Made by a program: the position numbers and the translations under genes
Shown here: piece by piece, positions 5,433-57,197 of the stretch
Numbering within the stretch: position 1 is the first letter of the stretch
Layout: each line of letters opens with the position of its first letter
The notes under the pieces: model-generated
Seen by the model: the letters and a program-made list of their open reading frames with translations, nothing else
Databases searched by the model: none
What the model was told of the DNA's origin: nothing
NCBI GenBank assembly: GCA_902786015.1
Contig: CADAAU010000001.1
Span: 1-64,000, forward strand
Length of the DNA: 64,000 bases
DNA from: an uncultured Coriobacteriaceae bacterium
GTDB taxonomy: Bacteria > Actinomycetota > Coriobacteriia > Coriobacteriales > Atopobiaceae
Direction of reading: 5' to 3'

Positions 5433-5633
5433 ATGAACATCAACGACTTGTCTCCCGAGCTGCGGGAGAAGGCGCGTGCGTGCGGATCAACCGAGGAGCT
5501 GTTCGAGCTCGCCAAGGAGGAGGGCATGGAGATTCCCGACGAGCACCTCGAAGGCATCTCTGGCGGTTGGTGCTCTGAGCACGAATGGGGCTGCCCTGCC
5601 GACAAATGTGGCGTCTATGGCATCGGCCGGTAG
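5433..5633 (+). CDS. Nif11-type leader peptide, RiPP precursor (66 aa)
   Basis: A strong ribosome site (GGAAGGAGAGGGA) precedes the ATG. Residues 1-45 match the Nif11-like leader family: an N-terminal helix with LSPELREKARAC, then EELFELAKEEG and the end ISGG, where the leader is normally cut. The 21-residue core starts with WCSEHEWGC and has three Cys, two Trp, one Ser, no Thr and a Gly-Arg end. With a single Ser it can form at most one lanthionine, so another modification type is possible. No modifying enzyme is adjacent; the nearest candidates are the acyltransferase at 6.3-7.6 kb and the LanM at 20.1 kb. It converges on a second such gene. Confidence 0.85.
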   Translation: MNINDLSPELREKARACGSTEELFELAKEEGMEIPDEHLEGISGGWCSEHEWGCPADKCGVYGIGR

Positions 5634-5690: not shown

Positions 5691-5939
5691 TCAGTAGTAT
5701 TCGAAATCATATCCACAGTTGAGACATGTGCAATATGGGTTGCCGTATACGAAACTCTTGCTCCCGCATTTGGGGCATTTAAGCTCCTCGTTGGTCCAGA
5801 GGCCGCCGCCACTGATCTGGTCGAGATCTTCATCGGTCAGGGTGTAGCCCTCCTCCTTGGCCAGGGCCAAAATCTCCTCTGGTGTGCTACAAGCTTTGAC
5901 CTTAGCCCTCAGTTCGGGATCAAGGCTCTTAAGGTCCAT
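5691..5939 (-). CDS. Nif11-type leader peptide with zinc-ribbon-like core (82 aa)
   Basis: The ribosome site AAAGGAGG lies just before ATG 5939. The leader (residues 1-46) is of the Nif11 type: LDPELRAKVKAC, then EEILALAKEEG and ISGG. The core of about 36 residues contains CPKCG and, 14 residues later, CTCLNCG, so two CxxC-type knuckles as in small zinc ribbons, followed by the aromatic, acidic tail YDFEYY. This core is unlike usual lanthipeptide cores. It may be a metal-binding peptide, a fusion of a leader to a zinc-ribbon, or a precursor for an unknown modification. Convergent with the peptide gene at 5433, and downstream, on the same strand, of the acyltransferase gene. Confidence 0.8.
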   Translation of the reverse strand: MDLKSLDPELRAKVKACSTPEEILALAKEEGYTLTDEDLDQISGGGLWTNEELKCPKCGSKSFVYGNPYCTCLNCGYDFEYY

Positions 5940-15484: not shown

Positions 15485-15676
15485 ATGAAGTTTGACGACT
15501 TGACTGATGAGCAGAAGGCCCGGGTAAAGGCCTGCAAGACCGTCGATGAGCTGGTTGCGCTTGCCAAGGAGGAGGGCGTGGAGCTCAGCGAAGAGCAGCT
15601 TAGCAGCATTTCGGGAGGCGATAGTTGGTGGTGCCCGACTGCCACAAGCTGCCCGAATTATGAGGTCATGAGGTAA
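15485..15676 (+). CDS. Nif11-type leader peptide, RiPP precursor (63 aa)
   Basis: The ribosome site GAAAGGGGAAAC precedes ATG 15485. Leader residues 1-45 follow the Nif11 pattern (LTDEQKARVKACKT, then DELVALAKEEGVEL and SSISGG). The core is DSWWCPTATSCPNYEVMR: two Cys, two Ser, two Thr, two Trp. Ser or Thr residues before each Cys could give two (methyl)lanthionine rings if processed by the LanM at 20.1 kb. A terminator hairpin follows at 15726, so it is monocistronic, ahead of the unknown gene pair. Confidence 0.87.
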   Translation: MKFDDLTDEQKARVKACKTVDELVALAKEEGVELSEEQLSSISGGDSWWCPTATSCPNYEVMR

Positions 15677-15852: not shown

Positions 15853-16881
15853 ATGAGCCTGGCTGGCAAGCCCTCTCAGATGACGGTGTTCGACGCGCTG
15901 TACTCGATAGCCGCAGGAGACGGCAGGGGCGAAGCGCTGTTTGGGAATAGCTTCGGCATTGCGAGGGGCGCCTACGAGCGTACGCTCATAGGCGACGGCT
16001 ATCCGGCAGCTTACATTGAGTTTCCCCTCCTCGGATCGCCGGGGTTCGATTTGCTCTCGGTTCACGACACCGTGCGACCCGGGTCTCGCTTCGCGCCGGG
16101 AGCTGGCTTCGGCTATCAGGCGATGCTCGACTGGTTTTCGAGTGTCCGCAAAAAGGGCGCCAATGTGAGCTGCGGCATCGAGCTCGACACGTCGGTTGGC
16201 GAAACCGAGCGGGCGGGCGTTTACCTGCAGTACCGCAGGCACACCGACCTGATCGCACCATTCTTGGAATCCATTGGCGAGGAAGCCCGCGCGGAAAGCT
16301 TTCTGGCCGTGGTCGATCGCATGCCCGAGGGCTGGCCGCCAGCCTATGTCGGCCTCTTCCCCGGACGGACGGGCACTCCGCTACGCATCGGCGGCTACCT
16401 GGGAGACGCCATGCAGAGGGCGTGCGTCGACGACCCCGCACTTCTGGCCGCCCAGTTCGACCGGATCGGCTTTTCCGCCTACGACGGCGAGATGCTCTCG
16501 CGATGTGGCGCGCTCCTGTCGCTCGCGCCGTCCGTCGACTTCCAGTTCGACATCATGCCCAACGGTACCCTGGGCGACGTGTTCGGGCTGTCGCTCTCGT
16601 TCAACGAGACGAGGCCTCGCGATGCCCGCGCCTGCATGGAGGGCGGCTACGGCGCCCAGGCGTGCGGGACCCTGCAGGAATGGGGGCTGGCAGACGAGCG
16701 CTGGAGGTTCATCGCCGGCGCAGCGTTCGCTCGCCATGTGCCGTTTGACCGGGAAGACGGATCGCAGGGCAGGTTCGCCCTCTGCTGCATGCTCAACTAC
16801 GCGAAGGTCAAGTTCGCCGGTGCCGTGGCGCAACCGGCTAAGTTCTACTTGACGATGTCTGCCGGCGAGGTGGAGGCATGA
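15853..16881 (+). CDS. Unknown protein A of a paralogous pair in the RiPP locus
   Basis: I do not recognise the family. The 342-residue product is soluble, without signal peptide or membrane helices. It shares an ordered set of motifs with the next gene: an N-terminal helix (MTVFDALYSIA), AYERTLIG..YPAAYIEFPLLGSPGFDLLSVH, MLDWF, GWPPAYVGLFPGRTGTPLRI, VDFQFDIMPNGTLGDVFGLSLSF and a C-terminal strand KVKFAG....AKFYLTM. The repeated two-strand/helix feel and the lysine/tyrosine-rich last strand recall ABBA-type aromatic prenyltransferases, but that is weak. The stop overlaps the start of the next gene (ATGA), so the two are made together. Both lie between Trp-containing Nif11 peptides, which suggests tailoring or immunity. 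Confidence 0.8.
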   Translation: MSLAGKPSQMTVFDALYSIAAGDGRGEALFGNSFGIARGAYERTLIGDGYPAAYIEFPLLGSPGFDLLSVHDTVRPGSRFAPGAGFGYQAMLDWFSSVRKKGANVSCGIELDTSVGETERAGVYLQYRRHTDLIAPFLESIGEEARAESFLAVVDRMPEGWPPAYVGLFPGRTGTPLRIGGYLGDAMQRACVDDPALLAAQFDRIGFSAYDGEMLSRCGALLSLAPSVDFQFDIMPNGTLGDVFGLSLSFNETRPRDARACMEGGYGAQACGTLQEWGLADERWRFIAGAAFARHVPFDREDGSQGRFALCCMLNYAKVKFAGAVAQPAKFYLTMSAGEVEA

Positions 16882-17876
16882 ACGCCGATGCGATGAGGCT
16901 CTACGAGACTCTGTACCGCCTTGCCTCCAAGGACGTAGGATGCGATCTGTTCGGGGCGAACGCCCCGCTTGCGCGGGAGGCGTTTCGGCGCGCTTTGGCG
17001 GGTGCGTCGATGCCCATCGTTTGGTTCGAGGTTCCGCTATCCGGCCTGCCGCGCTTCGACCTGCACGTCGCGCACGGCAACGCCGACCTCCACGGGCATG
17101 CCCCATTTGCACCGGATGCCATGGACGGGCATGGCGAGCTGCTTAACTGGTACGCGTCCGAGCCGCGTGCGGGCGGAGGGCTCGCGCTTGCCTACGACGT
17201 GGGAGATGGCCGCATCGGCGCTCCCGCCGTGCATGCCAACGTGAACGCCCTCGAAGTTTTCGATATCGAAGGATTCTTCCTCCACGTTGGAAGGCCGGAA
17301 GCAGCGGCGCTCTACCACGGCTTCGAAAAGCGGCTTCCGCGAGGTTGGCACATATGGTATTGCGGCGTGCATCCGGGCAGGCCGGGCGCTCCCGTCCGGG
17401 TTGACTGCTTCGTTGACAAGAGCTTGAAATGCGCATACGCTGCCGAACCCGCAAGGCTCGAAGAAGACCTCCAAAGAGCAGGATTTGCTGTCGAAGGCTC
17501 GGCGGCGCGACGCGTCGGGGCAGAAGTGGCCGCGTCCCCCTTTGGCGTGGAGCTCCAGTTCGACGTCCTCTCCGATGGGGCGCTCGGGCAAACTGTGGGC
17601 GTTTCTGCCCAGCTTCCCCTTGTGGCTGCGAGTGCGGCGCGTCGGCTTTGGGAACCCGCTGGTGGCGCAGCGCAGCTCATGGAGTTCGCCGTGGATTCAC
17701 GTGTCGCTGACGCCCGATGGCGATGTGTCCGAAAAACCATGTTCTCGACAGTGGCGCGAAATGGCAAGGTCTCGCAGGCACTCTACTGCATCCCTGTGTT
17801 TACGAAGTTTCGAGTGTGTGCAGACAAGCTTCTTGATGCGAAGATTTACCTTCAGGCAGGCGCGGTCTTATTATAA
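16878..17876 (+). CDS. Unknown protein B of the paralogous pair
   Basis: A 332-residue soluble protein, overlapping the previous gene by four bases. Alignment by eye to protein A: AFRRALAGASMPIVWFEVPL, RFDLHVAHG, LLNWY, GWHIWYCGVHPGRPGAPVRV, VELQFDVLSDGALGQTVGVS and the C-terminal KFRV.....DAKIYLQAG. Identity outside these blocks is low, so this is an old duplication, perhaps forming a heterodimer. The conserved GWxxxYxGxxPGRxGxPxR block is the best signature for searches. Function unknown; the hypothesis of a modifying enzyme pair for the neighbouring Nif11 peptides rests on position only. TAA at 17874 is followed by the promoter of the next peptide gene. Confidence 0.8.
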   Translation: MNADAMRLYETLYRLASKDVGCDLFGANAPLAREAFRRALAGASMPIVWFEVPLSGLPRFDLHVAHGNADLHGHAPFAPDAMDGHGELLNWYASEPRAGGGLALAYDVGDGRIGAPAVHANVNALEVFDIEGFFLHVGRPEAAALYHGFEKRLPRGWHIWYCGVHPGRPGAPVRVDCFVDKSLKCAYAAEPARLEEDLQRAGFAVEGSAARRVGAEVAASPFGVELQFDVLSDGALGQTVGVSAQLPLVAASAARRLWEPAGGAAQLMEFAVDSRVADARWRCVRKTMFSTVARNGKVSQALYCIPVFTKFRVCADKLLDAKIYLQAGAVLL

Positions 17877-17991: not shown

Positions 17992-18162
17992 ATGGCAAAC
18001 TTTGACGAATTGACCGCTGAACAGATGGAAAAGGCGAGGGCGTGCAAGAACTCTGACGAACTGGTCGAGCTTGCTGCGTCCGAGGGCATCGAGCTCACCG
18101 ATGACCAACTCGAGGCCATCTCGGGTGGCTCGTGGTACAACTGCATGAACGAAACGTGGTAG
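17992..18162 (+). CDS. Nif11-type leader peptide, RiPP precursor (56 aa)
   Basis: A short gene of 56 codons. The leader (46 residues) has the Nif11 pattern FDELTAEQMEKARACKN, DELVELAASEGIELTD and EAISGG. The core is only SWYNCMNETW: Ser1, Cys5, Thr9 and two Trp, so at most one lanthionine ring (Ser1-Cys5). GGAAGTGGGTGGGGT precedes the ATG. It lies directly after the unknown gene pair and before the HipA-like kinase gene. A hairpin at 18191 may end its transcript. Confidence 0.85.
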   Translation: MANFDELTAEQMEKARACKNSDELVELAASEGIELTDDQLEAISGGSWYNCMNETW

Positions 18163-18319: not shown

Positions 18320-19510
18320 ATGGTCAGGCGCACACTCATGCAACGCGACCGAGAGCTGGTCGACTTCGAGGTTGATCCGGTGACGGGGGAGGCTCGCATC
18401 ATCGATACGGCGAGCGACAACTTGACTGCTTCTTTGGGGCTGGTCCAGGGAAACAGGGATCAGGTTTTGACGTCACTCATGATGAGGCGCGCCCTATCGC
18501 CCATGCGCAAGGACTTGGATGACATCCTTGCCGCTTTTGGAGCAAAGTCACCTGTTGACCTTGCGCTTATGGGGCATGGACTCTCGCTTTCCGACCAGTT
18601 CTGGTATCGTGCCCCTGGATCCTCCGAACGCTGGAAGGACGTGAACTTCTTCGACAACGGATGGGATCCGGATTTTGGCGCGGCGGTCCTTTTGGGCGAT
18701 TACGCCCGTCTGGTGACCTGTTCGTCTGACGCTCCCGAAGCCACGACGCCTGGACACGCCGTCAAGGCGTGGGAGCGCAACGATGACGGCATACACCTTG
18801 TCAAGGCAGCCGAATACCCCGATGGTGGCGAGCTCGTAGGTGCCAGACTGGGATTCGATCTATGCTCCTTGCTCTTTGGCGAGGGTTGCTGCGTTTCCTT
18901 GGACGTGGTGGAGCGCTATGGCAGACTCTGCTCGATCAGCCCACTCATGTTGGGTGGCGATGAGGAGCTCGCCGACGGGAACCGGATCTTTGCAATGGCG
19001 GATATGTGGGAGAGCTCCTGCTTGAGCACGGGGGGCATCACGACGGAGGCATGCGACGCCCTCATCGATGCCTATGCAGCCATCGGAGTTGCAGATGCCT
19101 CGGCACACGTGGCCAGGCGGGCATGCTTCTCCTGCCTTTCTTTGCTTTTGGATTTCAACCCAGGCAACTTCGGCGCCATTCGCAAAACCGATTCGGATGT
19201 GTGGCGTGCGGCACCCATCTTCGATTACGACGGCGCTTTTGGCTTCCCGCTCAATGGTGTCTCGATCTCCTTCTTATGCGAGAACCCCTCTTTCGTCGAG
19301 CTGTTCTGCGCCCATCGCTTCTCTTTCCTCAAGTCATCTTGGGACTGGTCTTGGTGCGATGTGCGAGCACTCGATGGCTTTGAGGACGTCATCATGGAGA
19401 CCTACGCTTCCTGCCGGAGCCTTCCGCCAGTCTTCGCAGAGCTCATTGCCCATCTGTTTGTTGCGCAGCGCGATTACGTGAACAAGGTTGCGTCGGGAGG
19501 ACGGACGTAG
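18320..19510 (+). CDS. HipA-like kinase
   Basis: A 396-residue protein with hallmarks of HipA-like serine/threonine kinases of Firmicutes and Actinomycetota: HGLSLSDQFWYR with the W-K-D-V-N-F-F-DNGW segment at about residues 80-115, the catalytic loop LLLDFNPGNFGAIRKT and the metal-binding APIFDYDGAF. HipA proteins phosphorylate translation or signalling targets in toxin-antitoxin systems, but this family without a HipB partner has no known role. ATG 18320 follows AGAGGGAG; a longer frame from 18272 lacks a site. Inside the RiPP locus it might regulate producer physiology, or be an orphan HipA; nothing in the sequence decides. Confidence 0.7.
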   Translation: MVRRTLMQRDRELVDFEVDPVTGEARIIDTASDNLTASLGLVQGNRDQVLTSLMMRRALSPMRKDLDDILAAFGAKSPVDLALMGHGLSLSDQFWYRAPGSSERWKDVNFFDNGWDPDFGAAVLLGDYARLVTCSSDAPEATTPGHAVKAWERNDDGIHLVKAAEYPDGGELVGARLGFDLCSLLFGEGCCVSLDVVERYGRLCSISPLMLGGDEELADGNRIFAMADMWESSCLSTGGITTEACDALIDAYAAIGVADASAHVARRACFSCLSLLLDFNPGNFGAIRKTDSDVWRAAPIFDYDGAFGFPLNGVSISFLCENPSFVELFCAHRFSFLKSSWDWSWCDVRALDGFEDVIMETYASCRSLPPVFAELIAHLFVAQRDYVNKVASGGRT

Positions 19511-19786: not shown

Positions 19787-20086
19787 ATGAAGACGATACA
19801 GGAGCTGTACGGTGAGGTCATTGCCAGCGACGAGCAGAAGAAGGCCTTCGTCGAGGCTATGAAGGCAGACAAGCTCGAAGACTTCCTGAAGGCGCACGGC
19901 TGCGAGGCAACCAGAGAGGAAGTCCAGGAGTTCATTGATGCCAAGGCGGCCGAGGACGCCCCGATCGAGCTCAGCGATGACGAGCTCAAGTATGTCGCCG
20001 GTGGCAGCTTCGTCGATAGCGTTGAATGCTCCCATAAAAGCAACACGTGCAATTGCTCGAACAGCTGCATCCGCGATTGTTGCTAG
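19787..20086 (+). CDS. Class II lanthipeptide precursor (LanA, 99 aa)
   Basis: AAGGAGG precedes the ATG by 8 bases. A long acidic leader (about 73 residues) ends in LKYVAGG, a double-glycine site cut by class II peptidase-transporters. The core of 26 residues has six Cys and seven Ser/Thr, with pairs such as SVEC, NTC, NCSNSC and a final DCC, enough for up to six rings. The leader differs from the short Nif11 leaders (extra N-terminal helix and KAAEDAPIEL before the site) and resembles long nitrile-hydratase/Nif11-like leaders. The LanM gene starts 12 bases after the stop codon, so they are one operon and this is very probably its cognate substrate. Confidence 0.9.
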   Translation: MKTIQELYGEVIASDEQKKAFVEAMKADKLEDFLKAHGCEATREEVQEFIDAKAAEDAPIELSDDELKYVAGGSFVDSVECSHKSNTCNCSNSCIRDCC

Positions 20087-20098
20087 AAATCCCTGCGG

Positions 20099-22801
20099 AT
20101 GTTCCGGTACTTCGTTGAGTATCAGGTTGCCCGTGTCAAACAGTGTCCACAGGCGAGCATGCTTGGGGACAGGGTCTACGAGAGGCTTGAAGACGCCCTG
20201 AAGCGTAAGGTTGAGCTCGTGGCCGGCAGCACGGCGACGCACATGATTTCCCAGGCGGTGGTGGACAACCCGTTCGCCACCGCTTTTCCAGACCTGATCA
20301 CCGATGCCGAGCGCACGCAGGCCTTGGATACGATACGCAGGCAGCTCGACAGCGGGGCCATGACTCTGCCGGAGCCGCTCGTTGCATGCCTTGAGCTGCA
20401 GCTTGGCAATGCGACGAGCGGCCTTCTCGAGGCGCTGGACCGCCTAGCGGAGCATCGCGATGAGATTTGCGATGTGCTCCTGGAGGGAAGGCGCTTCCAA
20501 ACGATTGACGATGTCATCCTTTCGACCGGCGATGCCCACAACTGCGGTCGAAGCGTCACGATCTTTACCACCGATGCCGGAAAGCTGGTCTACAAGCCTC
20601 ACGACCTGCGGGTAGACGAGCAGCTCTACGGATTCGTCGGGCGGTTCTTCGGCGACTTCGTTGGCATCCCGCGCGCTATCGCCTTCGGGAGCCAGTTTGG
20701 GGTGTGCGAGTTCGTCGAAAAGCGGCGCGCGGAGGGCGAGCGCGAGGCGAAGCGCTTTTGGTACCACATGGGTGGCCTGGCGGCCTTCGCTAAGCTCTTG
20801 GGTAGCACCGACCTCCACTTCCAGAACATCCTCTGCTGCCAGACGATGCCCTACATCATCGACCTCGAGACCATGCTGTCTCCCATCTCTGCCGAGCGCC
20901 TGGCCTATCTGCAGTCTGCGGACACGAGGGAGTGCCACACGCATTCGATCGCCCCCTCGTTGCTCATGCCCTCTCGAGTCGAGGATATGGAGTTAAGCGT
21001 CCTCACCAACACGGAGGAGAGTGGTATCGCCCCCGTCGTGGATGGGAAGATCGTTACCGTGGAGCCCTACGTGCCCACGTTCAAGCAGGGCTATAGCGTC
21101 ATCTACTCCCGCATCGTCGAGCACAAGCAGGCGATTCGGGAGGCCGTGTTGTCGTTTCCCTCGGACATGAAGGTCCGGATCGTCCTGCGCGCTACGAGGG
21201 GCTATTGGCTGATTCTGCAAAAGCTGTACCACCATTCGGCCCTGGCAAGCCCCGCAGATAGGCAGCGTAGCCTGGAGACATGCGAGAGGATTTTGCGTGA
21301 GAGCGACGTAACCGCAGAGCCTCCGATAATCGATAGCGAGGTCGCGCAGATGCGGCGGGGCGACGTGCCGTACTTCTACACCTACGCCGATGGTCTGTCT
21401 CTGTATGGCGAGGGAGAAGAGCTCGTACAAGGCAAATTCAGTCTGTCGGCGATCGAGCGCATAGTTGACACCCTCGACGCGATGGGCGAAGAGGACGAGG
21501 CGTTTGACCTTACCTATATCGAGCGCGCGATCATGATGTATGACTGCGAATCGGATGCGCCGAAAATGGAAGCCCCGATTCGCCGGGATGTCGCAGATGT
21601 CCCCATTTCCAGGGAGTACGCGATCGAGACAGCTAGAAGGGTGTTCCAGAGGATGCACGATTTGGGAATACGGACACCTAACGGGCGGCTGGTGTGGGGA
21701 TATGTTTCCAGCAATACCCAGGCGTTCCAGTTCAGCGACGCCGGTCTGTTCGACGGCTTTACCGGACTTGCGGTGTTTGCCTCTGCCTGCGCGGCGGTAT
21801 GGCCCGACGACCTGATTCGCGAGCGGACGGACGCGCTCCTGTGGGAGGCGGTCGACGAGATACGGGGGCTGTGCCGTTTCGTGGACAGACATATTGGCAA
21901 CCCCGATGTCAGCGTACCCGTGGGGGAAGGCGCCGGCTTTGGAGGAATCTTGACCGGCATCGCGCTCATGCGGCGCTATGCACCGAGCGAGACGTTGGAC
22001 GACCTCTGCGAGCAGGTCTTGGCGCTTCTTGAACGGACGGACTTCTCTGGCTGTTCGGTGGCTGACCGGATTGGCGGTCTGGCAGGGCTCGTTGCCGTCT
22101 TGTGCAGGTTCGAGGAATACCGGGGCAATACGACAACGATCCGCAACGCAGCCAATCGCATCCTCGAACTGAGGACATGCGCGTACAGGGATCGCGTCCT
22201 CTGGAAGACCATGTTCGATGTGCCCCGAGCACTCAGCGGTGCCGGGCACGGAATGTCGGGAATCGCCGAGGCCCTTGTCGCCGCGGCCGACGTTCTGGGT
22301 GATGACCGGTATCTCCCCGCCGCTACTGAGGCGCTGGGTTACGAAATCGATGCCTATCGACGCTATGAGAAGATATTCGGTACTTGGGCAGACCTGCGGG
22401 AGTTCCCGCCGATGAAGTACATGCACGGATATTGCGCGGGGGCGCCCGGTACGGGAATCGTGGTTAACCGCATGTTGGAAGAGGGACGCGGCGACACGAG
22501 GGCGCAGGCCATCGCTCGCATGGTTCGACAGAGCGTCGACTCGCTTCCCCTGATGCCCTTCGACCACCTGTGCTGCGGAAACTCAGCCGTCGCGGAGTAC
22601 TATCTGTCCACAGGCGACCATGAGGCCACCGGTAGGGTCCTTGGGGCCATAGCCGGACATGGCTCGCACGAGGGCAAGCATCGGGACCCCCTTTCGAACG
22701 TGAGCTGCAACTCGGCCGCCACGCTCTTCAACGGGATCGGCGGCATTGGCTACGAGCTGTTGCGCTATGCGTATCCAGATACGATACTCTCCGTCCTGTA
22801 A
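20099..22801 (+). CDS. lanM: LanM bifunctional lanthionine synthetase, CCG type
   Basis: A 900-residue class II synthetase. The dehydratase half shows STGDAHNCGRSV (about 141-152), LVYKPHDLRVD, WYHMGGLAAFAKLLGSTDLHFQNI and IDLETML, the kinase-like motifs that phosphorylate Ser/Thr of the substrate. The cyclase half has the LanC motifs GHGMSGIAE, YCAGAPGTG (Cys779) and LCCGNSA (Cys825-Cys826). The last is CCG in place of the usual CHG, giving three cysteine zinc ligands as in ProcM-like enzymes, which are known for broad substrate range. The enzyme is slightly shorter than usual at the N-terminus; ATG 20099 has a weak site, with ATG 20159 as an alternative. No peptidase-transporter follows. 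Confidence 0.93.
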   Translation: MFRYFVEYQVARVKQCPQASMLGDRVYERLEDALKRKVELVAGSTATHMISQAVVDNPFATAFPDLITDAERTQALDTIRRQLDSGAMTLPEPLVACLELQLGNATSGLLEALDRLAEHRDEICDVLLEGRRFQTIDDVILSTGDAHNCGRSVTIFTTDAGKLVYKPHDLRVDEQLYGFVGRFFGDFVGIPRAIAFGSQFGVCEFVEKRRAEGEREAKRFWYHMGGLAAFAKLLGSTDLHFQNILCCQTMPYIIDLETMLSPISAERLAYLQSADTRECHTHSIAPSLLMPSRVEDMELSVLTNTEESGIAPVVDGKIVTVEPYVPTFKQGYSVIYSRIVEHKQAIREAVLSFPSDMKVRIVLRATRGYWLILQKLYHHSALASPADRQRSLETCERILRESDVTAEPPIIDSEVAQMRRGDVPYFYTYADGLSLYGEGEELVQGKFSLSAIERIVDTLDAMGEEDEAFDLTYIERAIMMYDCESDAPKMEAPIRRDVADVPISREYAIETARRVFQRMHDLGIRTPNGRLVWGYVSSNTQAFQFSDAGLFDGFTGLAVFASACAAVWPDDLIRERTDALLWEAVDEIRGLCRFVDRHIGNPDVSVPVGEGAGFGGILTGIALMRRYAPSETLDDLCEQVLALLERTDFSGCSVADRIGGLAGLVAVLCRFEEYRGNTTTIRNAANRILELRTCAYRDRVLWKTMFDVPRALSGAGHGMSGIAEALVAAADVLGDDRYLPAATEALGYEIDAYRRYEKIFGTWADLREFPPMKYMHGYCAGAPGTGIVVNRMLEEGRGDTRAQAIARMVRQSVDSLPLMPFDHLCCGNSAVAEYYLSTGDHEATGRVLGAIAGHGSHEGKHRDPLSNVSCNSAATLFNGIGGIGYELLRYAYPDTILSVL

Positions 22802-22814
22802 CGAGGTGGAGGCG

Positions 22815-22952
22815 ATGTACTACCGCATAGCAGACCATGTGGCGTTGCGCAGATGGCCGGATATCGGCTTCGCGATCAACACGAACGGCTGGTACCAGAG
22901 AATCGTGCAAGCCTTGCACGAATGGACGAACCTGAGTGAGATTGGGTTTTAG
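22815..22952 (+). CDS. Small protein or truncated maturase N-terminus (45 aa)
   Basis: A 45-codon gene with a good GAGGTGGAGG ribosome site, 13 bases after lanM. The first residues, MYYRIADHVALRRW, resemble the start of radical SAM/SPASM peptide maturases, where a MYYRI.....LRSW strand opens a PqqD-like recognition domain. The rest (FAINTNGWYQRIVQALHEW) does not continue this pattern. It may be a decayed maturase start, or a genuine short open frame within the operon. There is no double glycine, so it is not an obvious precursor. Confidence 0.45.
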   Translation: MYYRIADHVALRRWPDIGFAINTNGWYQRIVQALHEWTNLSEIGF

Positions 22953-39130: not shown

Positions 39131-40018
39131 ATTTGCGTCAACGATCGGTGGTTCGGGGGAGAGCCGCTGCTCGCATCCGACGTTATCGACGAGCTTAGCG
39201 CGCGCCTCATGGACATAGCCGAGCGCTTCGGCGTGGGCTACGACGGCATAATCCACACGAACGGCTACCTGCTCGACCAGGAGATGGTCGACTTCCTAGA
39301 GGCGCGCAACGTACGCACTGCCATCGTGCCCATCGACGGCATGGGGGCCGCCCACGACGCGACGCGTCACCTGGCGGGCGGCGGACCCACGTTCGACGTC
39401 ATCATGGGCAACCTGCGCTCCATCCGCACCTCGATGTTTGTGAACGTCCGCAACAACCTGCATGCGGGAAGTCTGGAGCGGTTCGGCGAGCTGTGCGAGG
39501 CGGTAGACACCATCGCGCGGGAGAACGGCACGAACATCCGGTGCAGCCCCAGCAGGGTGAAGCGGACCGCCGCCGGCGTGGCGCGCGGGGACACCACGCC
39601 CATCATATCCGAGGCGCAGTACGAGCGGGCCCTCGCGAGGACTGACCTTCCCGCCAAGATGCGCTCCTTCACCCCGGTGATGGCGCCGTGCCCGGCCGCG
39701 CTTCCCAACGAGGTCCACATCGACGAGCTTTGCAACGTCTTCCCACACTGCAGCTTCTACTCGGATGACCCGTCGTATTCCGTGGGCAACCTGCTCGACG
39801 CGGACGGCAGTGCGGGCGCCTGGCTGAGCAAGCTTGAGGAACGGGCGAAAGAGCTCTGCTTCCCGGACGACCAGTCCCGATGCCTCGCGTGCAAGTTCCT
39901 GCCGTGTTGTTTGGGCGGCTGTCCCATTCAACGCATCGAAAGCGGCGAGCCTGAGTGTCCGTCGGCGCTCTTCGACCCGGATGCGTACGCTATCGCTCGC
40001 GTGCGCGAGGTGGGCTGA
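39131..40018 (+). pseudogene. Radical SAM/SPASM maturase lacking its N-terminus
   Basis: In frame from about 39131 the sequence reads ICVNDRWFGGEPLLASDVID, then IHTNGYLLDQEMVDFL, VPIDGMGAAHDATRHLAGGG and a C-terminal SPASM domain with cysteines at CPAALP, ELCNVFPHC, CLACKFLPCCLGGC and ECP. The first 100-130 residues, with the CxxxCxxC cluster motif, are absent and a TGA precedes the frame. It belongs to the same family as the maturase at 56094-57427 (shared GGEPLL, TNGYLL, DATRRLVGGGPTFD). ATG 39209 could start a truncated product, but it could not bind the SAM cluster. Confidence 0.75.
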
Positions 40019-56093: not shown

Positions 56094-57197
56094 CTATCTG
56101 CAGCTGATTCTTGAGTGCATAGCAAGGACAAACGCCTCGGGGTCGTCGCGGTATGCGGGGCACTCGGGCTTGCCGAACAGGCGTAGCTGCGGGCAACCTC
56201 CTCCGCACAAAGGCAGCCACACGCAGTGGTAGCACATGTCATCGGGGGAGGGAACGGCAGTGTTGAGGAACTTGCTGAGCATATCGGGGTTGCTCGCGGT
56301 TGCGAGGGGGTTGGCCGGATCCCAGTCGCGGGCAGTGCCGTAGGCGAACTCGGGTTGGCCGCAGAGCTTGCCTCCGCACTTGTAGAGCAGTCCCTCGTCG
56401 TCCATGGCGACCATCCACAGGTTTTGCCCGACGCAGGCGTGGTCCTTGCCAACTATGACGTGACGCGATTCCGGGCGCAGTGCGACTTCGATGCCGTGGA
56501 AGGCGTATTCGGCCATCGGGCTGTCTGTCTCGTCGGCGGGACTCACGTCCACAAGCGATGCGGCGTAAAAATCAAGGTCGATTTTTGCCTCTTCGGCACG
56601 CTCCAAGACGACTTTCTTTAGCTCGTCTATCTCGCCTACGTTCCCTTCATGCGTGTTTGCGCGGATGAGCGTGCGTATGGGAGATTTGAGCAAGCCTAAG
56701 TTGTCTATGATGCGGTCGAACGTTGGGCCTCCTCCCACGAGGCGGCGCGTGGCGTCATTGGTTGCCCCCACGCCGTCGAGCGGGATGTGGACGTGCTCGA
56801 CGCGGCAGCGTAACAGCAGGTCAACTACGTCCTCGCTAAGTAGGTAACCGTTCGTAAAGATCCATGCCGCGTATTCGCAGCCACGCGCCTCGGCGAGGCT
56901 TATGAGCCTTGGGGAAAGTGATTCGATTACGTCGGTTGCCATAAGCGGCTCTCCGCCGAACCAGGTTATGGTGAGCTTCTTTGCATGCGCGGCGTCGATC
57001 ATACGTGCCGCGAGCGCCACGGCGTCGTCCTGTACCTCGGGTGACATCTTGCCCCGTCCCCGGGTCGCAAAACAGTACGGGCACTCGAAGTTGCAGGCGA
57101 GCGTCGGACAAATGGTGATTGCCACCTCACCCCTGGGCGCGGTGGCGCACGAGAGCCTGCGCTGCAACCCAAATGCCTCGCGTTCGTCGTAGTTCAC
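56094..57197 (-). CDS. Radical SAM/SPASM peptide maturase, main part
   Basis: A 367-residue protein with CPTLACNFECPYCFA at residues 31-45 (SAM-cluster CxxxCxxC), ITWFGGEPLM, IFTNGYLLSEDVV, DATRRLVGGGPTFD, and a C-terminal SPASM domain for auxiliary Fe-S clusters (CGGKLCG, CYHCVWLPLCGGGC, ECPAY). It resembles RiPP maturases that install thioether or C-C crosslinks. GTG 57197 lies in TAGTG, overlapping the stop of the small gene upstream. That gene encodes the missing N-terminal domain in another frame, so the maturase appears split by a one-base deletion or made by frameshifting. No precursor peptide is seen nearby. Confidence 0.88.
   Translation of the reverse strand: MNYDEREAFGLQRRLSCATAPRGEVAITICPTLACNFECPYCFATRGRGKMSPEVQDDAVALAARMIDAAHAKKLTITWFGGEPLMATDVIESLSPRLISLAEARGCEYAAWIFTNGYLLSEDVVDLLLRCRVEHVHIPLDGVGATNDATRRLVGGGPTFDRIIDNLGLLKSPIRTLIRANTHEGNVGEIDELKKVVLERAEEAKIDLDFYAASLVDVSPADETDSPMAEYAFHGIEVALRPESRHVIVGKDHACVGQNLWMVAMDDEGLLYKCGGKLCGQPEFAYGTARDWDPANPLATASNPDMLSKFLNTAVPSPDDMCYHCVWLPLCGGGCPQLRLFGKPECPAYRDDPEAFVLAMHSRISCR

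Follow-up and report, generated by a model that had tools for sequence, protein, structure and literature searches.

The locus is part of a window of 64,000 nucleotides, by which we mean the whole stretch of DNA analysed here, from contig CADAAU010000001.1 of an uncultured Coriobacteriaceae bacterium. Two overlapping genes, termed A and B in this study, are framed by two RiPP precursor genes and followed by a kinase-like gene and a lanthipeptide module. The features are as follows.

15485..15676, plus strand: precursor peptide 1, with a 45-aa Nif11-like leader ending in ISGG and the core DSWWCPTATSCPNYEVMR (Pfam Nif11 and leader profile)
15853..16881, plus strand: protein A (A1-type, 342 aa), a predicted ABBA/PT-barrel prenyltransferase (AlphaFold2, Foldseek, and VIA-align; no sequence family)
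16878..17876, plus strand: protein B (B1-type, 332 aa), inferred to be a paralogous ABBA prenyltransferase or subunit (paralogy to A, invariant residues kept)
17992..18162, plus strand: precursor peptide 2, with a Nif11-like leader ending in ISGG and the core SWYNCMNETW (leader profile)
18320..19510, plus strand: HipA-fold kinase-like protein, partner of precursor 2 and possibly a peptide kinase (AlphaFold2 and Foldseek; role inferred)
19787..20086, plus strand: putative separate lanthipeptide precursor without Trp, core SFVDSVECSHKSNTCNCSNSCIRDCC (weak leader_Nif11 match, E 2e-4, below the cut-off)
20099..22801, plus strand: LanM class II lanthionine synthetase of a neighbouring module (TIGR03897, 396.8 bits; cut-off, 304)

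Gene A runs from the ATG at 15853 to the stop at 16881, and gene B from the ATG at 16878 to the stop at 17876, with a 4-base overlap (ATGA). The two proteins are paralogues, sharing 30% identity over 336 positions in BLASTP (E = 8e-35). A GWxxxYxGxxPGRxGxPxR block is present in both (GWPPAYVGLFPGRTGTPLR in A and GWHIWYCGVHPGRPGAPVR in B), as is a C-terminal strand, AKFYL in A and AKIYL in B. No strongly hydrophobic segment was found in either protein. Neither A nor B matched any family in Pfam or NCBIfam, and a PDB sequence search with A, B, and the 55-row family profile returned no match. For the 55 family members, NCBIfam gave chance matches only, and no cyanobactin-type prenyltransferase model was matched. 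A preliminary description, made from sequence alone, had reported overlapping paralogues of 342 and 332 residues with this common block and an A-K-[FI]-Y-L strand, and could not place them in a known family. The coordinates, overlap, and BLASTP result confirmed the first claim, and the shared motifs were found in both proteins. The absence of a known family held for sequence (Pfam, NCBIfam, and PDB sequences), the fold being identifiable by structure. A confident match to a housekeeping family would have refuted the proposal of a new tailoring system; no housekeeping family was matched.

Precursor 1 exceeded the Pfam Nif11 cut-off of 23.8 bits (25.3 bits; leader-profile E 2.5e-23). Precursor 2 was below it (14.3 bits) and was recognized by the leader profile (E 3.4e-22). 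Both fit RiPP precursors with a Nif11-like leader, having a Gly-Gly leader end and a short Cys/Trp core, precursor 2 by way of the leader profile. The core of precursor 1 recurs upstream of A-type genes in several relatives, and precursor 2 is conserved downstream of B1-type genes. The claim that A and B are framed by Trp-containing Nif11 precursors with these two cores was upheld, with precursor 2 joining only through its relatives.

The structure of A was predicted by AlphaFold2 from the 55-row alignment (pLDDT 95.2, pTM 0.92). The order of strands and helices in the model, as assigned by DSSP, corresponds to five alpha-beta-beta-alpha repeats and a predicted ten-stranded antiparallel barrel. 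In a Foldseek search against the PDB, ranks 1-49 were all ABBA prenyltransferase chains, and rank 50 was an unrelated pilus complex (probability 0.02). The best match was the 5-dimethylallyltryptophan synthase 6zs0 (E 3.1e-7), followed by IptA, CymD, and PriB. All 50 rows returned by VIA-align were prenyltransferases (Z 13.2-16.1), and the matches of both programs covered almost the whole model. PatF was found at a VIA Z of 13.4, and KgpF was lower-ranked (Foldseek E 5e-3). Since TM-scores were only about 0.5 and identities 11-14%, the relation of A to known ABBA enzymes is distant. Sequence-level membership in PF11991 (DMATS/Trp_DMAT) was considered and rejected. PF11991 was absent from the 55 family members in a Pfam search, and hhalign of the family profile with six bacterial DMATS proteins, found through PF11991, did not reach significance (29% probability, with the register wrong). 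The window's own genome gave no PF11991 match, and only 5/296 genomes of the phylum did. The relationship to DMATS therefore rests on the predicted fold, which is well supported, whereas placement in the DMATS sequence family lacks support. We consider it very likely, on the strength of the model, that A has the ABBA/PT-barrel prenyltransferase fold. A model was made for A only; for B, the assignment as an ABBA prenyltransferase or subunit is inferred from paralogy and kept residues. The suggestion of an ABBA-type aromatic prenyltransferase, with the checks proposed for it, fared as follows. The HMM-HMM search was not significant against the six DMATS proteins, structure prediction gave an ABBA/PT-barrel for A (pLDDT 95), and the comparison with PatF/KgpF or DMATS placed Trp/indole enzymes closest. 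The suggestion is strongly supported by the predicted structure, and catalysis itself is only inferred.

Fourteen columns were invariant in an alignment of 55 sequences that covers the A and B types down to 24% identity to A: L29, E56, P58, L59, D66, W94, D112, G206, Q231, D281, R283, K318, K330, and Y332. R172 and R178 were nearly invariant (R178 in 53/55), and B retains all invariant family residues. Invariance of this extent over 55 relatives is far beyond chance. Strand 1 of A carries E56, and its last strand K330 and Y332; two further invariant acids, D66 and D112, are located on strand 2 and at the end of strand 3, respectively. E56, R178, Q231, K318, K330, and Y332 are all on strands of the model, and their spatial placement was not superposed. 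TleC uses Glu106 for catalysis; its Arg119, Lys187, Arg248, and Arg378 hold the diphosphate, and Tyr252, Tyr317, and Tyr382 shield it (PMC4786772). R178-x3-Y182 on strand 6 of A has the spacing of TleC Arg248-x3-Tyr252, position 182 being Y in 29/55 and F in 9/55 sequences. Because these mappings to TleC-type sites rest on strand order without coordinate superposition, the placement of the active site is inferred. NphB has an Asp where EpzP has an Arg, and the Mg2+ ligand of NphB is cited, second-hand, as the Asp D51 (PMC3485228). By analogy with Mg-dependent ABBA enzymes, a Mg2+ site at D66/D112 is inferred.

The window's genome carries five copies of the family at three places. The family was present in 16/16 genomes of the genus, at 2 to 8 hits per genome including fragments, and in 6/199 Coriobacteriia genomes, representing 4 genera. 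The leader family (E below 1e-6) occurred in exactly the same 6/199 genomes. Co-occurrence with precursors, set beforehand as a test, was complete in the class sample (6/6 of 199 genomes), and the other genera showed the same leader/enzyme pattern. The six genomes are not independent, as a single genus accounts for three of them, and the profile was built on 15 leaders that mostly came from loci around enzyme genes. As a profile control, the exporter model TIGR03796 was over its cut-off in 13/199 genomes; as 8 of these were without the enzyme and G191 was not among the 13, the leader family is the more specific of the two. In a sample of 396 genomes of the phylum, the family was matched in the window's own genome alone. 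A phage search gave no match to the family, and a plasmid search gave a single match, in Butyrivibrio. The database loci are mainly metagenome bins, several with names that refer to the ileum or duodenum of sheep or goats, or to red deer; some carry RUG numbers, which we take to denote the rumen. One family locus (OMYM01000299.1), with the order rSAM gene, A-type gene, precursor (GG-WAWDCIQDGC...), and B-type gene, is in a contig binned as Erysipelotrichaceae. Either the locus has moved between phyla or the contig was wrongly binned.

In the genus, a leader-family precursor was found within 2.5 kb at 17/48 family loci (0.83 expected), and two thirds of the family loci had no recognisable precursor within this distance. 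A permissive search for other precursors at loci without a leader-profile match found none that was convincing, except for a Nif11-like 92-aa peptide without Trp near a locus of G210. In 55 dereplicated cores, Trp was present in the first five residues after Gly-Gly in 75% of cores vs 6% expected (binomial p about 1e-37, without correction for shared ancestry), and Tyr and Phe were not enriched there. Cys was present in 91% of cores vs 36% expected, and in the first five residues in 36%. Trp occurred in 15/15 distinct cores adjoining an enzyme gene. The idea that Trp is special to precursors beside enzyme genes was rejected, as 56/58 cores of precursors distant from enzyme genes also contained Trp. 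The model was therefore shifted from purely local to partly trans-acting. Precursors in the other genera (G130, G136, and G191) mostly start with Trp, for example WSCDSFGERSDCHLNQWYE and WGDPCPDYSGLACGDLC. The earlier proposal that the enzyme acts on Trp has gained indirect support only, from the Trp-first cores and from the Trp/indole enzymes as closest structures.

Further peptides were observed. Two more Nif11-like precursors lie face to face in the window at 5433-5630 (core WCSEHEWGCPADKCGVYGIGR) and 5694-5939 (core GLWTNEELKCPKCGSKSFVYGNPYCTCLNCGYDFEYY); several species, as well as G136, a genome of another family, have an almost identical version of the former core. Some GG-leader peptides (L113, L119, L146, L182, and similar) have long cores with two CxxC pairs, resembling zinc ribbons (e.g., CPKCGSK...CLNCGYDF), which is unusual among RiPP cores.

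In a maximum-likelihood tree, the A-type proteins were monophyletic with 100/100 support. Each intact tandem pair, in 18/18 distinct loci, consisted of one A-type and one B-type gene; none was AA or BB. Two matched lineages were recognized: A1 with B1, ordered A-B in nearly all cases including the window, and A2 with B2, ordered B-A. Both A2 and B2 were present in 15 genomes, normally with one copy each, and in 7/15 (G195, G199, G201, G202, G209, G210, and G211) they were on different contigs. The copy number of A1 varies, and G209 has a lone A1 beside a DSFWCPTATSC precursor. The mixed pairs could be explained by inheritance of one ancient tandem duplication without any complex. Since A2 and B2 are both retained after separation, joint function is the better explanation. 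Given prenyltransferase activity, heteromeric function of A and B is inferred, and we would put the odds no higher for it than against it.

The operons of relatives add further RiPP genes. A radical-SAM/SPASM maturase gene is immediately upstream of B2-A2 in G130 and G204. In G136, this place is taken by a two-gene exporter, the first gene of which is over the cut-off of TIGR03796 (NHLP-type peptidase/exporter), and a radical-SAM gene is divergent. No rSAM gene adjoins A1/B1 in the window. Elsewhere in the window, two radical-SAM/SPASM maturase-like genes were seen, at 39209-40015 and 56097-57197, with their best NCBIfam matches, TIGR04463 and Clo7bot, under the cut-off; compared with relatives of ~450 aa, each looks shortened or split. 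The relative in Butyrivibrio fibrisolvens is a plasmid protein annotated as hypothetical, with 24% identity to A over 95% of its length and a profile E of 1.1e-24. It retains 23/25 checked conserved positions, including all charged ones. Its cluster encodes a paeninodin-like lasso precursor that narrowly misses its cut-off, PqqD proteins of the lasso type, an HprK-related protein, and an asparagine-synthase-like protein whose best match is to lasso cyclases. On the B. fibrisolvens plasmid pNP243, the lasso-type cluster was seen to hold two PqqD proteins, two annotated nucleotidyltransferases, the HprK-related protein, and a 57-aa peptide that is rich in Cys and ends in GRIW.

The protein encoded at 18320-19510 is an orphan by sequence, without a Pfam HipA_C match. 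Its AlphaFold2 model (pLDDT 90) matched HipA in Foldseek (E 1.5e-9), and distant relatives scored 17.5-27.3 bits against HipA_C, under the cut-off of 30.5. Across 25 relatives, K149, K162, N283, and D302 were invariant and D278 was conserved in at least 90%; these are candidates for ATP/Mg binding. The gene is located 3' of precursor 2 in the window and in six more loci, and in G130 a relative comes after exporter genes. The protein is like the HipA/CtkA kinases in fold, and differs from them in its RiPP gene context and its HipA_C score below cut-off. That it is a kinase of precursor 2 is a possibility, inferred from fold and context. The orphan family has a relative, mostly distant, in 79/298 Coriobacteriia, and it travels with the SWYNCMNETW precursor (window 18320-19510; L272:5066-9226; L275:7177-8673), in G130 with RiPP exporter genes. 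The lanthipeptide precursor at 19787-20086 is directly 5' of LanM and, at related loci, shows linkage to the B1 module; the LanM/LanA module adjoins the prenyltransferase module on differing sides among relatives. The short gene after LanM (22815-22949) encodes 45 aa vs 105 aa in a relative (L027:2898-3212), and the SPASM-domain gene present near LanM in relatives was not seen in the window. The LanM module therefore looks partly decayed in this genome.

Several known systems resemble A and B. MppC of Moorena is an ABBA enzyme that geranylates one Trp of a lanthipeptide with a Nif11 leader; it requires the whole leader, acts after lanthionine formation, and does not turn over free Trp (PMC12715784). 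MppC/MppE of Moorena producens and A/B are alike in ABBA fold, Nif11-type precursor, Trp-containing core, and RiPP gene cluster. However, MppC is a single cyanobacterial enzyme acting on a LanM-cyclised core, whereas A and B are two paralogous actinobacterial genes whose loci are mostly without an adjoining LanM (one is nearby in the window). As MppC already prenylates Trp with a Nif11-class leader, ABBA-type prenylation of peptide Trp with such leaders is already known. The novelty lies in the sequence family itself, its setting in actinobacteria, the pairing of the genes, and the dispersal of the Trp-first peptides; the open-licence literature searched yielded no account of a system of this kind in Coriobacteriia. 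The best structural matches of A are the bacterial DMATS/CymD enzymes (PF11991: 5-DMATS of S. coelicolor, IptA, PriB, CymD, and TleC/MpnD), with which it shares a Glu on strand 1, R-x3-Y on strand 6, and Lys and Tyr on the last strand. A and B differ from them in lacking a sequence match, in an invariant Asp replacing the basic residue on strand 2, in RiPP context, and in gene pairing. The cyanobactin enzymes PatF/PagF/KgpF/PirF share the ABBA fold and peptide substrates (inferred for A/B). They differ in a weaker structural match, A being closer in fold to bacterial DMATS, in the absence of a family-model match to A/B, and in being leader-independent. ComX of Bacillus is likewise a short exported Trp peptide and is prenylated, whereas for the Coriobacteriia Trp peptides prenylation is only possible; ComQ is of the isoprenyl-diphosphate-synthase type and unrelated to ABBA enzymes (PMC5331326, PMC13290415).

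We propose that A and B constitute an ABBA Trp prenyltransferase system for Gly-Gly-Trp peptides, acting partly in trans, with a probability of approximately 0.74. The genes, paralogy, predicted fold, invariant residues, context, A/B pairing, co-occurrence, and Trp-first cores are shown; the activity, donor, Trp site, leader binding, and A/B complex are inferred. Enzymatic prenyl transfer to a RiPP is the probable activity, without assay data, and Trp is inferred as its likely site. A and B would add an isoprenoid (C5-C15) to a Trp near the N-terminus of Nif11-leader, Gly-Gly-processed peptides. The leader would hold the precursor while the core enters the barrel. The donor diphosphate would be bound by R178, K318, K330, and Y332, probably with Mg2+ on D66/D112. 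The indole would attack the allyl cation, with E56 on strand 1 accepting the indole proton as in DMATS enzymes. A C39-peptidase ABC transporter would then cut after Gly-Gly and export the product. A1/B1 would mainly serve the two adjoining precursors, and the near single-copy A2/B2 set the genome-scattered ones. The HipA-fold kinase may phosphorylate precursor 2.

Three rival explanations were weighed. The first is that A and B prenylate RiPP precursors at another residue or atom (Tyr, Cys, Ser/Thr, His, Arg, or the N-terminus), Trp being a radical-SAM crosslink target or a recognition element. In its favour, Cys is also enriched in the cores (91% vs 36% expected), and radical-SAM/SPASM maturases are in or beside the same operons (G130, G136, and G204), so that the conserved Trp and Cys could be maturase targets in some operons. 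In addition, cyanobactin ABBA enzymes prenylate many residue types (PMC12715784), and the Butyrivibrio relative lies among lasso-type genes. However, the closest structures of A are Trp/indole enzymes, A1/B1 in the window has no adjoining rSAM gene, and Trp is more strongly concentrated than Cys just behind the cleavage site (75% vs 36% in the first five residues). This rival is considered unlikely. The second rival, that A and B modify a free small aromatic molecule such as tryptophan or indole and that the peptides are unrelated, is supported by the best structural matches (6zs0, 7w8v, and 5inj), which act on free L-Trp. It is opposed by the complete co-occurrence with the leader family, by precursors, exporters, and maturases as neighbours, and by the RiPP context in another phylum, and we regard it as very improbable. 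The third, a non-catalytic immunity or peptide-binding pair reusing the barrel, as raised in the preliminary description, has little in its favour beyond two similar genes per locus adjoining precursor genes, and is judged very unlikely in view of the soluble enzyme fold without a strongly hydrophobic segment, the charged residues invariant over 55 sequences and kept in another phylum, and the A2/B2 sets retained genome-wide away from precursors.

A bolder form of the Trp prenyltransferase reading is that A and B are an obligate two-protein ABBA enzyme, with the core A2/B2 form modifying, in trans, a library of Gly-Gly-Trp peptides encoded throughout the genome. We lean slightly against this form. 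To our knowledge, A/B would be the first heteromeric ABBA prenyltransferase, and none was seen among the titles found in the open-licence literature. The strict A/B pairing raises a directly testable new question, namely whether a PT-barrel enzyme works as a heteromer. If the bolder form is true, Coriobacteriia of the rumen and gut would secrete peptides prenylated on an N-terminal Trp, and these would make up a large class that has gone unrecognised.

A family unrecognised by the libraries thereby gains a predicted fold and an activity that can be tested; the bacteria that carry it are host-associated, and their peptide products are unknown. Lipidation of Trp can turn peptides into signals or make them membrane-active. 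If the Trp prenyltransferase reading is true, A and B would be small leader-guided tools for peptide lipidation and would represent an unrecognised bacterial route to lipid-tagged peptides.
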